Below the pieces are notes generated by a model, which worked only from the letters and a program-made list of their open reading frames with translations, was not told the DNA's origin and made no database searches. 64,000 bases of DNA from Acinetobacter sp. LoGeW2-3 (GTDB lineage: Bacteria > Pseudomonadota > Gammaproteobacteria > Pseudomonadales > Moraxellaceae). The position numbers and the translations under genes are program-made. The DNA lies in the NCBI RefSeq assembly GCF_002688565.1, contig NZ_CP024011.1, forward strand, positions 2,542,001-2,606,000, read 5' to 3'. This document shows, piece after piece, positions 24,052 to 29,167 of this stretch; the first letter of the stretch is position 1, and every line of letters starts with the position of its first letter.

Positions 24052-24582
24052 ATGTCGAATGATAATTTTGATCGTGATGTAATTAAGAATTCTCCAAAAG
24101 ATGTACGTGATGATTTAAATGCCGATCCGATTACTGGTGAACCAGGTGCGCATCCGGTGGGTACTGGTATCGGTGCTGCAGGTGGTGCAGCTGCTGGTGC
24201 AGCGATAGGTACTGCTGCTGGACCAGTCGGCACTGCTGTCGGTGGTGTAGTCGGTGCAGTGGTTGGGGGACTTGCTGGCCACGGTGTTGGTGAAGCAGTA
24301 AACCCAACCGAAGAAGAAGCCTATTGGCGTGAAAACTCAATCAATGCACCTTATTATGCTGAAGCACGTACCAGCTATAGCGATCTAAATTATGACCGCG
24401 ATTATCATACGGCGTATCAGGTTGGTTATGAAAACCGTGCTCATTATGATGCCAATACCCGTTTTGAAGATGCCGAAACAGATTTACGTGTCAAATGGGA
24501 ACAGGTGAAAGGCGAGTCGCGTTTAACTTGGGAACAGGCTAAATACGCGATGCGTGATGCCTGGAATCGTGTTTCACGTTAA
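24052..24582 (+). CDS. Glycine-zipper protein with charged, aromatic C-terminal half
   Basis: A 176-residue protein. Residues 1-35 are acidic and polar. Residues 36-85 form an uninterrupted Gly/Ala/Val glycine zipper (GTGIGAAGGAAAGAAIG, then VGGVVGAVVGGLAG), able to insert in or pack against membranes. Residues 95-145 are rich in Tyr, Asp and Arg. The last 30 residues (WEQVKGESRLTWEQAKYAMRDAW) resemble the CsbD-like stress-protein helix. No signal peptide is present. A stress-related role is an inference from the composition. The ATG has AAGGA eight bases upstream. The stop codon is embedded in a 21-base near-perfect palindrome. Confidence 0.8.
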   Translation: MSNDNFDRDVIKNSPKDVRDDLNADPITGEPGAHPVGTGIGAAGGAAAGAAIGTAAGPVGTAVGGVVGAVVGGLAGHGVGEAVNPTEEEAYWRENSINAPYYAEARTSYSDLNYDRDYHTAYQVGYENRAHYDANTRFEDAETDLRVKWEQVKGESRLTWEQAKYAMRDAWNRVSR

Positions 24583-24599
24583 TCCTGATTCAGGATTAA
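24579..24599 (+). terminator. Stem-loop spanning the stop codon, without a T run
   Basis: Two 10-base arms (TTAATCCTGA and TCAGGATTAA) flank a single central T and include the TAA stop of the glycine-zipper gene. Because no T tract follows, this may be a processing or 3'-end-stabilising hairpin rather than an intrinsic terminator. Confidence 0.45.
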
Positions 24600-24726
24600 A
24601 TCGCTAAATGTTGGCAAGGCCGGATGTATATTTGGGTCTTGCCAATCTTAGATAGATCTATGACAAACAAATGGATTGATAAATAGAAATAGGCACACTA
24701 ATAAATATTTTTTTTACAATTATCTC

Positions 24727-24755
24727 TTGTCAAATATCGATATACCGCGTATTTT
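24727..24755 (+). promoter_or_regulatory. Predicted sigma-70 promoter for the aromatic leader region
   Basis: TTGTCA (24727-24732) and TATTTT (24750-24755) are separated by 17 bases. Transcription would start near 24762, about 30 bases ahead of the first leader ORF. Confidence 0.45.
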
Positions 24756-24790
24756 AAATTTCATATTCACATTTTTTTGAATGACATAAC

Positions 24791-24847
24791 ATGCTCAAGC
24801 AACCTGTAAACTCAAACGCTTATTATTATTTCTGGCAGTTTAGATGA
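24791..24847 (+). CDS. Aromatic leader peptide 1 of DAHP synthase 2 (attenuator)
   Basis: An 18-codon ORF reads MLKQPVNSNAYYYFWQFR. Three Tyr, one Phe and one Trp codon in a row (24821-24835), then another Phe, form a classic control-codon cluster for ribosome-mediated attenuation. It ends one base before a stem-loop (24848-24869), and the downstream RNA has mutually exclusive pairings ending in a terminator. Its expected job is to couple translation speed, hence charged tRNA-Tyr, tRNA-Phe and tRNA-Trp levels, to transcription into DAHP synthase 2. The Shine-Dalgarno sequence is weak. The peptide is too short for usual gene finders. Confidence 0.75.
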   Translation: MLKQPVNSNAYYYFWQFR

Positions 24848-24925
24848 TTGCCTGAACGCGTTCGGGCAAGTAAAAGGTTGCCCACCCAGTTTATACCTGA
24901 TCGGCAACCCTGATCAGGTTTTTTT
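24848..24925 (+). promoter_or_regulatory. Transcription attenuator: alternative hairpins and terminator
   Basis: Segment 1 (TTGCCTGAAC, 24848-24857) pairs with segment 2 (GTTCGGGCAA, 24860-24869). Segment 2 (GGGCAA, 24864-24869) can instead pair with segment 3 (TTGCCC, 24878-24883). Segment 3 (GGTTGCC, 24876-24882) can pair with GGCAACC (24903-24909), which lies in the loop of the terminator hairpin ACCTGATC (24895-24902) / GATCAGGT (24912-24919), followed by seven T (24919-24925). These exclusive pairings are the hallmark of amino-acid attenuators. Stalling on leader 1 would cover segment 1 and favour the 2:3 pairing; which outcome that has for the terminator needs folding calculations. Confidence 0.7.
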
Positions 24926-24959
24926 ATGCTTGTTATATTTACAAATTTTGGAGACAACC

Positions 24960-25064
24960 ATGACTTACTTTAACTATTCATACTTTAGCAACTTTTATTG
25001 GTTCTACTTTAATCAGGTGATGAACCTTAGTACACAGACACATAGACCCATAAAGCTCAAATAA
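24960..25064 (+). CDS. Aromatic leader peptide 2 of DAHP synthase 2
   Basis: A 34-codon ORF with a strong GGAG Shine-Dalgarno (24950-24953) six bases before its ATG. It begins MTYFNYSYFSNFYWFYFNQ: five Tyr, five Phe and one Trp occupy 11 of the first 17 positions; the remainder (VMNLSTQTHRPIKLK) is unremarkable. It lies after the attenuator terminator and 39 bases before the DAHP synthase start, so it is translated only from read-through transcripts. A short hairpin GGACTG / CAGTCC (25071-25089) separates it from the synthase ribosome-binding site. A second sensing step, perhaps at translation, is the likely purpose. Confidence 0.75.
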   Translation: MTYFNYSYFSNFYWFYFNQVMNLSTQTHRPIKLK

Positions 25065-25103
25065 AAGTTCGGACTGTATCGATCAGTCCAAAGGATGAAA
25101 GTC

Positions 25104-26153
25104 ATGAATAGCGTTATTACCTCACAACAACAGCATACTGAAACTTTATTAAGCCTACCGGCTCAACTCAAGGCACAATTGCCATTGTCTCCACAATTAG
25201 CTGAACAGATTGCCGGACAGCGACAAACTATACAAAACATTTTAGAGGGTAAAGATCACCGCCTGATGGTGATTACCGGACCTTGCTCCATTCATGATGA
25301 AGCCTCCGCACTCGAATACGCAGAAAAATTAAAACAGTTACAGGCACAAATTTCTGACCAGATTTTTCTGGTGATGCGTACTTACATTGAAAAACCACGT
25401 ACAACTGTTGGCTGGAAAGGTTTCTTATATGATCCGGAGCTAGATGGTTCATCCAATATGCAGCAGGGGCTGGAAAAATCCCGCGATCTTTACCTGAAAA
25501 TTATCGGTATGGGTTTACCGATTGCTTCGGAAATTTTGAGTCCAATAGCAACGGCGTACTTCGACGATTTACTGGCTTGGGGCGCAATTGGCGCGCGTAC
25601 CAGTGAATCTCAGATCCATCGTGAAATTTCTAGTCACATGCCGTACAGCATAGGCTTCAAAAATGGCACCGACGGTTCGATTCAGATTGCTTTAGATGCG
25701 ATTCAGTCTGCCTCTCATTCACACCAGTTCATAGGCATGAGTCAATCAGGTTTACCATGTATTCTGCATTCTAAAGGGAATCCAAAAGCGCATCTGATTC
25801 TGCGTGGCTCAAATAGTGGTCCGAACTACCAGTTATCTGAAATTGAAAAAATCAAAGCCAAACATTCAGCAGAATTGCCGGCATTGGTAATTGACTGTAG
25901 TCATGGTAATAGCTCAAAAAATCCGACGCTGCAACCTGAAGTGCTGGCGCAGATCGTGGCAGAACGTTTACAAACCAATATTCGCGGTGTGATGCTGGAA
26001 AGCCATCTAGTTGATGGGAATCAGAAAATTTCAGAAGATATGGTTTATGGTCAGTCAGTTACAGATGGATGTCTGGGCTGGACAAAAACCGAGCAACTGT
26101 TGTTAAATATGACAGATTCATTGCGACTGGAAGGTTTAAAGCGTAGTGCTTAA
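25104..26153 (+). CDS. DAHP synthase, class I, copy 2, under leader-peptide control
   Basis: Second class I 3-deoxy-7-phosphoheptulonate synthase in the window, about 349 residues. Motifs match copy 1: GPCSIHDEASALEYA, EKPRTTVGWKG, GARTSESQIHREISS, GFKNGTDGS, DCSHGNSSKNP and ESHLVDGNQ. It differs clearly in sequence, so it is an old paralogue with probably different feedback control. I choose the start at 25104 (MNSVITSQQ) because AAGGA (25091-25095) is spaced for it; the frame opens earlier at 25095 without a ribosome site. Two aromatic leader peptides and an attenuator precede it, implying repression by Tyr/Phe sufficiency. It is not followed by another aromatic gene. Confidence 0.92.
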   Translation: MNSVITSQQQHTETLLSLPAQLKAQLPLSPQLAEQIAGQRQTIQNILEGKDHRLMVITGPCSIHDEASALEYAEKLKQLQAQISDQIFLVMRTYIEKPRTTVGWKGFLYDPELDGSSNMQQGLEKSRDLYLKIIGMGLPIASEILSPIATAYFDDLLAWGAIGARTSESQIHREISSHMPYSIGFKNGTDGSIQIALDAIQSASHSHQFIGMSQSGLPCILHSKGNPKAHLILRGSNSGPNYQLSEIEKIKAKHSAELPALVIDCSHGNSSKNPTLQPEVLAQIVAERLQTNIRGVMLESHLVDGNQKISEDMVYGQSVTDGCLGWTKTEQLLLNMTDSLRLEGLKRSA

Positions 26154-26193: not shown

Positions 26194-26396
26194 AATAGCG
26201 AATGTAACTGAGATGAATAAAGCTTAAAGATTTTCACTCAGTGTATTCTCTAAGTTAAAAATACAAAATAATGATGATTAAAACAATTTAATAGAACTAT
26301 CAAAATAATAATTGATTCAACAATAACAATAATTTTTCAGGATCTGCATCAAGCCATTTTAAGTTGCGAGATAAATATGATCCGAGGGACTTTGAT

Positions 26397-27575
26397 ATGT
26401 ATACACCCGAATTGCTCGATGAAGCACGTAAATTTATGCACCATATGCTGACCAAAGTGGTTGAATATGGCGGCTCAGATCTTTTTATTACTGCTGATTT
26501 TCCGCCGAGTATCAAACAGCAGGGTTTGATGAAGCCTTTTGGTCAGCAGAAACTGGCGGCAGATAAAACCCGCCTGTTTGCCTATGCCTTGATGAATGAT
26601 CGGCAGATCAAAGAATTTGAATCAGTCATGGATTGCAATTTTGGGATCAGTGTACCGGGTGTATCTCGTTTCAGGGTGAATGTCTTTCAGCAACAGCATA
26701 ACGTTGGCATGGTGATCAGGACCATTACTACGGATATTCCAAGTTTTCAGCAATTAGGGCTACCGAATTCGCTGCAACAGGTCGTTATGGAAAAACGCGG
26801 ACTAGTGTTGATCGTGGGCGCAACAGGTGTGGGTAAATCGACTACGCTGGCAGCCATGATTGATCATCGGAATACTTACTCAGAAGGACATATCGTTACC
26901 ATAGAAGATCCGGTGGAATATGTTTATCAGCATAAAAAGTCCATGATTACCCAACGTGAAATTGGTGTAGATTGCATCTCTTGGCATAATGCCCTGATCA
27001 ATACCATGCGTCAGGCTCCGGATGTCATCGTGATTGGTGAAATTCGGGATACTGACAGTATGGAGCAGGCAATTGCCTTTGCGGAATCCGGTCACTTGTG
27101 TTTGGCCACCTTGCATTCTAATAATGCTGATCAGGCTCTGGATCGTATTATCAACTTCTTTCCGGAAGAGCGCCGCAATCAGCTGTTATTGGATTTATCT
27201 GCCAATATGAAAGCTGTGATTTCTCAACGTCTGATTCGTACCGAGGATGGTCAAGGTCGCCGTGCGGCTGTAGAAATTCTGCTGAATACGCCGTTGGTCT
27301 CAGACTTTATCCGTAAAGGAGATTTTTACGAGCTGAAAACCATTATGGCGCGCTCGCGTGAACTGGGCATGCAGACCTTTGATCAGGCACTTTTTGATCT
27401 ATATAACCAGGGTATTATTTCTTATGACGAAGCCTTGCGTAATGCAGATTCGAGTAATGAAATGCGTTTGCAAATTAAATTAAAAAGCAGTCGCATCAAT
27501 CCGGCTCTTCAGGAAGAAGGCAGCAAGATGACGATACTGGAACAGTCTAAAGAAACGACACTCTCTAGAAGCTAA
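26397..27575 (+). CDS. PilT/PilU-family type IV pilus ATPase, copy A
   Basis: Secretion ATPase of about 392 residues acting at the cytoplasmic base of type IV pili, where such motors drive retraction. An N-terminal PAS-like domain (1-110) is followed by the RecA-like domain: Walker A GATGVGKST (about 147-155), Asp box VTIEDPVEYV, Walker B VIVIGEIRD and the His box ATLHSNNADQALDR. The N-terminal GGSDLFITADFPPSIK and the long C-terminus make it PilU-like rather than PilT-like. The start at 26397 follows GAGGG with good spacing; an earlier in-frame TTG at 26364 has no such site. It is closely similar to copy B at 27965 and separated from it by a hairpin terminator. No pilT adjoins. Confidence 0.88.
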   Translation: MYTPELLDEARKFMHHMLTKVVEYGGSDLFITADFPPSIKQQGLMKPFGQQKLAADKTRLFAYALMNDRQIKEFESVMDCNFGISVPGVSRFRVNVFQQQHNVGMVIRTITTDIPSFQQLGLPNSLQQVVMEKRGLVLIVGATGVGKSTTLAAMIDHRNTYSEGHIVTIEDPVEYVYQHKKSMITQREIGVDCISWHNALINTMRQAPDVIVIGEIRDTDSMEQAIAFAESGHLCLATLHSNNADQALDRIINFFPEERRNQLLLDLSANMKAVISQRLIRTEDGQGRRAAVEILLNTPLVSDFIRKGDFYELKTIMARSRELGMQTFDQALFDLYNQGIISYDEALRNADSSNEMRLQIKLKSSRINPALQEEGSKMTILEQSKETTLSRS

Positions 27576-27659: not shown

Positions 27660-27964
27660 CATGTTTTTAATTTTCTTTCTAAAAATAAAACCCATCTTGA
27701 TTCGCTTGAATGAATTCCTCATTCTTTTTTCAAAAATATGAAATCAAATTATTTTTATAGTTAAAAATAGATTCTAGATACATCTAGATCATTACCCTTT
27801 ATTTTTATTTTCTTTGAATCAGGTCACAGAATGCTTTTAAAAATTAATCTTTATAAATCAAATCTATTTGAGCCTTTTGCAAAAACGCTGCACAATAAAA
27901 ATCAAAATTTATAGGCATGAATCTGTTTTGAAGATTCATACAGTTGTGCATTGCAGGGGGAAAC
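27660..27964. other. Gene-free stretch before PilU-like copy B
   Basis: About 300 bases of A+T-rich sequence. No coding frame was seen. It presumably carries an independent promoter for copy B, since copy A ends in a stem-loop. Confidence 0.5.
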
Positions 27965-29167
27965 ATGTTCACGGCAGAGTTATTAGAAGAAGCACGTAAA
28001 TTTATGCACCATATGTTGACCAAAGTGGTTGAATATGGTGGTTCAGACTTGTTCATTACCGCGGACTTTCCACCTAGTATTAAACATCAGGGCTTAATGA
28101 AGCCTTTTGGGCAACAGGAACTTACCCCAGAGAAAACCAAACTGTTTGCTTATGCGTTAATGAATGAAAAGCAGCGTAAGGAATATGAAACCGAACTGGA
28201 ATGTAACTTTGCCATTACCGTACCGGGAGTTTCACGTTTCCGTGTCAACGTGTTCCAGCAGCAGCTGAATGTTGGCATGGTCATTCGTACCATTACCGCA
28301 GAAATTCCAAATTTCCAGAAACTAAAATTACCAGAATCGCTCAAGCATGTGATTATGGAAAAACGCGGTTTGGTACTGGTGGTAGGCGGTACAGGTTCAG
28401 GTAAGTCAACCTCACTGGCTGCGTTGATCGATTATCGTAATGAAAACTCTGCTGGGCATATCATTACTGTAGAAGACCCGGTGGAATATGTACATAAACA
28501 TAAGAAATCGATGATCACGCATCGCGAAGTCGGTGTAGATAGCCATTCCTGGCACAATGCTTTAAAAAATACCTTGCGTCAGGCACCAGATGTAATTCTG
28601 ATTGGTGAGATTCGTGATACCGAAACCATGGAACATGCGATTGCTTTTGCTGAAACTGGGCATTTATGTTTGGGTACGCTGCATTCCAATAATGCCAACC
28701 AGACACTGGACCGCATTATTAACTTTTTCCCGGAAGAACGCCGTAACCAGTTGCTCATGGATCTGTCTTCCAATATGAAAGCGATTGTCTCTCAACGATT
28801 GATCCGAACGGAAGATGGCAAGGGACGTCGTGCCGCAGTCGAGATCATGCTGAATACGCCGTTGGTATCTGACCTGATTTTGAAAGGCGATTTCCATGAG
28901 CTGAAAGCGATTATGGGCAAATCACGTGAACTCGGAATGCAGACTTTTGACCAGGCCTTATTTGATCTGTATAACGAAGGTGCGATTTCTTATGAAGAAG
29001 CATTGCGTAATGCTGACTCGACCAATGAATTACGTCTGCAAATCAAACTGAAAAGTTCTCGTGCCAATGCAGCCGCGAATAATACAGCAACTGCATTTAG
29101 CATGGTTGAAGAGAAAAAGCCGGATGATGAAACTGACGAAGATAAAAGTACAGCAGAACAAGCTTAA
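27965..29167 (+). CDS. PilT/PilU-family type IV pilus ATPase, copy B
   Basis: A 400-residue paralogue of copy A, nearly collinear from FTAELLEEARKFMHHML onward. Walker A here is the canonical GGTGSGKST; the Asp box (VTVEDPVEYV), Walker B (VILIGEIRD) and His box (GTLHSNNANQTLDR) are intact. The C-terminal 40 residues (from KSSRANAA) are variable, Ala- and Glu-rich, and longer than in copy A. The start at 27965 has a strong AGGGGG site; the frame opens 21 bases earlier without one. Both copies look functional. Copy B is the more canonical PilU by its P-loop. A terminator follows and is shared with the convergent MFS gene. Confidence 0.9.
   Translation: MFTAELLEEARKFMHHMLTKVVEYGGSDLFITADFPPSIKHQGLMKPFGQQELTPEKTKLFAYALMNEKQRKEYETELECNFAITVPGVSRFRVNVFQQQLNVGMVIRTITAEIPNFQKLKLPESLKHVIMEKRGLVLVVGGTGSGKSTSLAALIDYRNENSAGHIITVEDPVEYVHKHKKSMITHREVGVDSHSWHNALKNTLRQAPDVILIGEIRDTETMEHAIAFAETGHLCLGTLHSNNANQTLDRIINFFPEERRNQLLMDLSSNMKAIVSQRLIRTEDGKGRRAAVEIMLNTPLVSDLILKGDFHELKAIMGKSRELGMQTFDQALFDLYNEGAISYEEALRNADSTNELRLQIKLKSSRANAAANNTATAFSMVEEKKPDDETDEDKSTAEQA

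Follow-up and report, generated by a model that had tools for sequence, protein, structure and literature searches.

The window, a stretch of 64,000 nucleotides of DNA, carries on its + strand a gene for a type I DAHP synthase, which scores 410 bits with TIGR00034 aroFGH (cutoff 173) and has solved relatives that include 6agl and 4hsn. The enzyme is 95% identical to its counterpart in strain CIP 107287, and by sequence the window is assigned to an Acinetobacter close to A. schindleri. The synthase starts at the ATG at 25104, as backed by an alignment of relatives, and a second in-frame ATG is found nearby at 25095. Tandem, mutually similar genes for PilT/PilU-family pilus ATPases lie downstream of the synthase (26364–27575 and 27944–29167).

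A second DAHP synthase gene is located at 832–1944 on the minus strand. Its product is 49% identical to the first and is more widespread, matches at a comparable level being present in each of the 16 genera sampled from the family. Among the matches listed in the family survey, a second, closer match to the synthase at 25104 was found in Acinetobacter genomes only, so that this synthase and its leaders look genus-specific within the family. No such leader was found ahead of the paralogue; the best ORF in its upstream kilobase has five aromatic codons in 17 and lies inside the neighbouring gene.

The region ahead of the synthase at 25104 runs, 5' to 3', through leader 1, a pair of complementary arms, a terminator, leader 2, the hairpin P3, the synthase ribosome site and the synthase start. 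Its features, with the leader-1 elements designated stage 1, are as follows.

24791–24847, + strand: leader 1 ORF, MLKQPVNSNAYYYFWQFR, with the run Tyr-Tyr-Tyr-Phe-Trp-Gln-Phe; found by motif rule in 143/143 genomes
24876–24909, + strand: putative stage-1 antiterminator arms, GGTTGCC (24876–24882) and GGCAACC (24903–24909), complementary as read
24895–24925, + strand: stage-1 intrinsic terminator, strong, with a 10 bp stem (24895–24919) plus a T run
24950–24953, + strand: leader-2 Shine–Dalgarno sequence, GGAG; spacing of 6–7 nt in 117/143 loci, a count on which the rule for picking the ORF bears, the ribosome site being part of it
24960–25064, + strand: leader 2 ORF, MTYFNYSYFSNFYWFYFNQVMNLSTQTHRPIKLK, 34 aa, stop TAA at 25062–25064; conserved in the genus
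24966–25010, + strand: aromatic core of leader 2, residues 3–17; proposed stalling segment and proposed anti-start strand
25044–25064, + strand: leader-2 tail, AGACCC...GCTCAAATAA; conserved as nucleotides, in its codon choice
25071–25089, + strand: P3 hairpin (GGACTG/CAGTCC), located 3' of the leader-2 stop and 5' of the synthase ribosome site; covariation and near-constant spacing
25090–25106, + strand: synthase translation start region, with the Shine–Dalgarno sequence AAAGGA (25090–25095) and the ATG (25104–25106)
25104–26153, + strand: DAHP synthase (aroF/G/H family), the regulated gene

Leader peptides and their conservation in Acinetobacter

Leader 1 contains codons for the products of the pathway in 143/143 genomes and is followed by an intrinsic terminator; in the window, the leader-1 region (24780–24930) folds with z = -3.39. 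The terminator was detected in 139/143 genomes by a rule of at least seven unbroken pairs plus a T run, and the remaining four display a similar hairpin and T run by eye, with one mismatch in locus L096. This rule covers the intrinsic type only and is imperfect, having missed these four because the T run pairs with an A run or the stem is mismatched. The arms at 24876–24909 could form an antiterminator in the cell, and the likeliest reading of stage 1 is a classical ribosome-mediated transcription attenuator. The leader-1 stop is separated from the synthase start by ~255 nt in the window.

The initial annotation had placed a second aromatic leader between this attenuator and the synthase, and its description of the window was confirmed. 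Leader 2 is a 34-codon ORF with GGAG six bases ahead of its ATG at 24960, has Phe, Tyr or Trp at 11 of its first 17 residues, sits 3' of the attenuator terminator and ends 39 bases ahead of the synthase ATG, with complementary GGACTG (25071–25076) and CAGTCC (25084–25089) in the interval. A count of 11 aromatic residues in 17 is unique to leader 2 among 3386 starts (ATG, GTG or TTG with at least 17 open codons, both strands of the 64 kb window), the next best separate start having seven. Among 2000 Markov copies of 24700–25100, none reached 11 on the + strand and the maximum was nine. The composition of leader 2 is not chance. A consensus scan detected no internal promoter between the terminator and leader 2, and promoter-like sites in 24583–25110 were no more numerous than in shuffles. 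No Rfam family approached its gathering score in 24500–25300.

Both leaders lie ahead of the orthologue in all 143 Acinetobacter genomes analysed and in all 32 loci of a first comparison, which used 32 of 43 loci (31 titled Acinetobacter and one Moraxellaceae MAG) and left out the 11 others. The 143 genomes are those with an orthologue at E < 1e-110 among 149 Acinetobacter genomes drawn; G029, G030, G031, G032, G077 and G129, with one weaker match only each, were left out, as were loci that first appeared in the family survey. Loss of leader 2 or of its aromatic codons in relatives, on which the initial annotation was prepared to give up the proposal, was looked for and not seen, both leaders being present throughout (32/32 and 143/143).

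These counts must be read with the calling rules in mind: leader 1 was called by its motif, and leader 2 by at least five aromatic residues in 15 plus a ribosome site. The latter rule is permissive and weak alone, as about one third of Markov copies reach five aromatic codons in the first 17. Seven were reached by only 64/2000 copies, and at least seven in 15 are held by 135/143 loci. Of the two alternative frames across leader 2, one is open in 29 and the other in 1 of the 143 loci; the frame of leader 2 itself is open in all 143 by construction. One leader 2, that of locus L099, starts with GTG. Sequence and comparison together establish both ORFs and the stage-1 terminator, and leader 2 is almost certainly a real conserved leader element.

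Leader 2 is recognisably one family in 126/143 loci, recognised either by a loosely defined motif ([YF][YF][FGS] followed by W within ~5 residues) or by the DNA end CTCAAATAA. Motif and end occur together in 96 loci, the motif only in 18 and the end only in 12. The sameness of this core set is partly by construction, and each feature was therefore checked among the sequences that the other had selected. The strict string YFSxx[YF]WFYF occurs in 65/143 loci, and YF followed by S, G or N in 131/143.

The 17 loci outside the core set, which are absent from the structure tests below, include one frameshifted copy and divergent forms. The frameshift, in the leader 2 upstream of G040 (locus L166), falls inside the core (MYNFMTSYFAMFIGFTLVKT) and is the sole such case noticed among the 143; it represents either a real loss or a sequencing error. 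In a few divergent loci, such as L178 with five aromatic residues in 15, the ORF taken by itself could have arisen by chance. In the A. brisouii group (L028, L029 and L043), leader 2 is rewritten (e.g., MMMFTTYLVAYFQPRFWLYVAYNRSAKHTPLLMD), with the aromatic ORF kept and the motif changed; the leader-2 stop lies near the start of the synthase and P3 is not obvious there, suggesting that the second stage may work differently in this group.

Nucleotide constraint in leader 2 and the hairpin P3

In alignment columns of the 104 unique core-set DNA sequences, Tyr11 and Phe12 are invariant (104/104), and Trp17 (101/104), Phe20 (97/104) and Tyr19 (92/104) nearly so. Because this set was partly picked by motif, the fair check is the set of 86 sequences picked by DNA end with the motif ignored, in which Tyr11 and Phe12 are again invariant (86/86) and Trp17 is found in 85/86.

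Codon choice in leader 2, assessed in 62 representatives, departs strongly from that in the synthase genes. Ser10 is TCA in 39/43 cases (24% in synthase genes) and Ser13 is AGC in 51/56 (21%), so that neighbouring codons for one residue differ in their choice. In the tail, Arg is AGA in 49/52 (2% in synthase genes), Pro is CCC in 37/38 (5%) and the Leu ahead of the final Lys is CTC in 55/59 (3%). Binomial values on codon choice ignore shared ancestry and are descriptive. The base preceding the Leu codon is G in 60/62 representatives, across the codons ACG, AAG, TTG, TCG, ATG and CAG, with ACA and TTA as the exceptions; the residues at this position accordingly vary among T, L, K, S, M and Q. 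In the set picked by motif, with the end ignored, CTC is found in 83/97 and the preceding G in 95/97 unique sequences. Codon choice this extreme suggests that the coding sequence of leader 2 probably also acts as RNA.

The decamer GCTCAAATAA (window positions 25055–25064) is conserved as nucleotides across codons in relatives. No full pairing partner was found for it. A boxA-like antitermination site was considered for this decamer and dropped, as the run past GCTC is AAA rather than TTT. Slowing of the tail by rare codons was also considered: AGA, CCC, ATA and CTC are all rare codons, yet a large clade carries TCA, CAC and TTG in their place, and rarity as such is therefore not conserved in the tail.

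Hairpin P3 shows changes on both sides at five of its six pairs, with 91% of cells paired in the 62 representatives; variants in relatives include GGATTG/CAATCC and GGGCA/TGCCC. Its geometry was measurable in 101 of the 104 unique core sequences. The leader-2 stop lies 6 nt ahead of P3 in 94/101 and 5–7 nt in all, and P3 lies 2 nt ahead of the AGG of the synthase ribosome site in 82/101 and 0–3 nt in all, while the P3 loop drifts between 3 and 11 nt and the distance from the leader-2 stop to the synthase start ranges over 31–45 nt. With this nearly constant flanking spacing, a folded P3 would keep the leader-2 stop close to the ribosome site, at a distance that hardly varies. Read on the minus strand, P3 (25068–25092) resembles a terminator, with a T-rich tail after the hairpin.

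A larger structure of 25 pairs has a covariation score of 0.121, above all 500 shuffles and all slid registers. Nine of its pairs show changes on both sides, a number equalled by one slid register (-1), and cells with such changes number 29, compared with at most 19 in the slid registers. Comparison of the relatives shows the nucleotide-level constraint and P3 with its geometry; the pairing and release of the synthase start described below are computed.

Predicted pairing of the aromatic core with the synthase start

Folding models predict that the leader-2 sequence closes the synthase start. The opening cost of the synthase ribosome site and start averages 5.92 kcal/mol for the real sequences and 4.59 for synonymous versions (104 sequences, 30 versions per leader), with a mean z of +0.88; 82/104 values are positive and four fall below -1. 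Total folding energy does not differ from that of the synonymous versions (mean z 0.03), and the closing effect would therefore be specific to the synthase start. The signal weakens once related sequences are merged, with mean z values of 0.64 +/- 0.15 (62 clusters, 43 positive), 0.60 +/- 0.15 (55 clusters), 0.54 +/- 0.16 (42 clusters) and 0.37 +/- 0.15 (32 clusters, 20 positive).

A swap test among 48 representatives points in the same direction. After removal of row and column effects, the models have the cognate core, with 20 nt of upstream sequence, holding the start 0.90 kcal more tightly than the cores of other species do. None of 5000 permutations was as high; cognate values above the column mean number only 31/48. 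Duplex energies agree with this test (core–start P 0.006, core–tail P 0.027). We regard the predicted synonymous and swap effects on the synthase start as moderate.

Ribosome position has a predicted effect on the same region. When the leader is removed as far as 12 nt beyond the Trp codon, the mean opening cost falls from 6.19 kcal (52 sequences) to 2.69 kcal (51 sequences, those that have Trp), but not in every case, with locus L060 rising from 7.4 to 8.5 kcal. With a ribosome footprint modelled on the aromatic-cluster codons, the mean cost is 1.6–2.4 kcal lower, and with one at the tail or stop it is 0.2–1.1 kcal higher. This profile carries no synonymous control, and on the aromatic codons easing exceeds 1 kcal in only 41–71% of sequences.

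The models do not agree on a single conserved closing helix, and this candidate was rejected: plain RNAalifold recovers P3 alone, the start-closing helix differs between clades, and the relaxed consensus and single-sequence ensembles disagree on the partner. The relaxed consensus joins TTCAT of the core to the start codon and the Trp-Phe codons to AGACC of the tail, and pairs CTTTTATT with AATAAAAG at the stop. The single-sequence ensembles match TTTATTGGTTTT of the core, at mean probabilities of ~0.3, to the bases that surround the start codon, which read AAGACCAATGAA in many relatives. The tail sequence TAGACC resembles AAGACCAAT at the synthase start, and tail and start may therefore compete for one strand of the core. 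The fold of the window's own leader-2 segment is not exceptional (z -0.83).

A possible second stage, its alternatives and known systems

The initial annotation had suggested control in two stages, the first on transcription and the second possibly on translation. Our results favour this idea: no terminator was detected after leader 2 in any of the 143 loci by the rule described above, and the core is predicted to close the synthase start. The predicted release of that start when a ribosome sits on the aromatic codons also fits a translational stage. Leader 2 is, by its sequence, what a translational attenuator would need, an ORF rich in the codons to be sensed and placed just upstream of its target. 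We put the odds at somewhat better than even that leader 2 senses the supply of aromatics as a translational attenuator, in series with the transcriptional one.

We hypothesize that the second stage would act only on transcripts that have passed the first. With Phe, Tyr and Trp tRNAs charged, ribosomes would run through the core to the tail and stop, and behind them the core would re-pair with the synthase start region, while P3 would put the leader-2 stop at a short, fixed distance from the synthase ribosome site. Synthase initiation would be low because the core pairs with the start and P3 positions the leader stop. When an aromatic amino acid is short, a ribosome would stall on the core and cover the anti-start strand, and the synthase start would open. 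Such a sign suits a biosynthetic gene, and two stages answering the same shortage could make the response steeper or quicker. From this arrangement we infer that leader 2 is translated and that ribosomes stall on it, as well as the sign of the effect. The full double switch would consist of two leader peptides acting on transcription and then translation, covering all three aromatics, with aromatic (notably Tyr-Trp-Phe) codons antisense to the enzyme start and a hairpin that folds the leader stop beside the ribosome site, throughout the genus; for this combination we consider the chances evenly balanced.

The same elements could instead serve as a translational coupler or as a tuner of ribosome traffic, an alternative that the initial annotation had also raised. 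Translation of leader 2 would then break up structure, and ribosomes terminating on it would feed the synthase start and raise basal expression without sensing aromatics. Re-initiation is permitted by the stop-to-start distance in the 101 measured sequences, and the start is predicted to be closed when the core is untranslated. However, coupling leaves the 11 aromatic codons in 17 and the near-constant Tyr11, Phe12 and Trp17 unexplained, a ribosome at the leader end is predicted to make the start harder to open, and the effect would have the wrong sign under starvation for a biosynthetic gene. We consider this explanation unlikely, at roughly one chance in six.

Leader 2 might also shield a long untranslated RNA from Rho-dependent termination or decay, with stalling as a by-product or as tuning. 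The length of RNA between the leader-1 stop and the synthase start is compatible with such a role, as is the lack of an intrinsic terminator detected by rule after leader 2 in the 143 loci. Shielding would, however, need neither the aromatic core nor the extreme codon choice, the P3 geometry or the cognate pairing with the start, and we find it improbable.

Still less probable is a ligand-sensing arrest peptide of the ErmBL or TnaC kind, with the C-terminal R-P/S-x-x-L-K as the arrest motif. In much of the genus the peptide commonly ends in R[PS]xxLK*, but the tail that encodes it is conserved as nucleotides (the G in 60/62, CTC in 55/59) and the residues before the Leu vary, which lowers the standing of this reading. 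Conserved residues of the kind expected at an arrest site were not found in the leader-2 tail, the only part to which this comparison applies.

We give very little credence to leader 2 as a small protein with a function of its own, or as another transcription attenuator of the classical type: an ORF with a ribosome site is conserved in 143/143 loci, but its tail follows nucleotide rather than amino acid conservation, and the 0/143 terminators by rule after leader 2 make a second attenuator of that class unlikely.

Most textbook attenuators act once. If the proposed reading of leader 2 as a translational attenuator is true, a second, translational sensor of the same amino acids would make the response steeper or faster and would let the cell silence transcripts already made. 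The arrangement would then offer a clear setting in which to ask why two sensors of a single signal persist in series. We did not find the Acinetobacter arrangement described in the open-access literature, among the titles and abstract openings of the matches listed; with open-access coverage and part of the matches listed, this absence is weak evidence. The passages covered of a TSS-EMOTE paper on bacterial pathogens including Acinetobacter (PMC5094136) contain nothing on the locus.

Stage 1 resembles E. coli pheA/pheL and trp/trpL and C. glutamicum aroR in its Tyr/Phe/Trp leader, its complementary, putatively alternative arms and its terminator. The aroR leader, with Phe-Tyr-Phe, lies ahead of a DAHP synthase operon (aroF) (PMC11802643). 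Leader 2 is unlike the classical transcription attenuators in that it follows the terminator and none of its own was found (0/143 by rule).

Two short leader ORFs in series are described for the Salmonella mgtCBR leader, which has the tandem attenuators mgtM and mgtP; one ORF answers the supply of charged tRNA(Pro), and the two signals, ATP and proline, both act on transcription (PMC3641672). The Acinetobacter ORFs share this serial layout but differ in encoding the same kinds of amino acids and in that no terminator was found for the second. Translational attenuation with two leader peptides, ermBL and ermBL2, is described for ermB (PMC8274638). The likeness extends to the pair of leader peptides and the translational level. 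Stalling in ermB is caused by erythromycin on the leader peptide, whereas the stalling proposed for Acinetobacter would be caused by uncharged tRNA.

The nearest logic among known systems appears to be that of B. subtilis rtpA. There, a T box reportedly governs transcription and a leader peptide governs translation, each in response to uncharged tRNA(Trp), and the stop of the leader peptide in rtpLP-rtpA is said to lie just upstream of the ribosome site of the gene. The likeness lies in serial switches that would answer the same amino acid supply, first on transcription and then on translation initiation, and the distance that P3 would set between stop and ribosome site recalls the rtpLP-rtpA geometry. 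Serial aromatic leaders before one gene had initially been called unusual, a view that needs tempering: tandem leader ORFs are known from mgtCBR and ermB, and rtpA is reported to pair transcription with translation. The Acinetobacter arrangement differs from rtpA in that both proposed stages are leader peptides, all three aromatics are covered, the target is biosynthetic, the host is a gammaproteobacterium and a hairpin bridges the stop and the ribosome site. The parts are known, from rtpA and mgtC, and the combination looks new.
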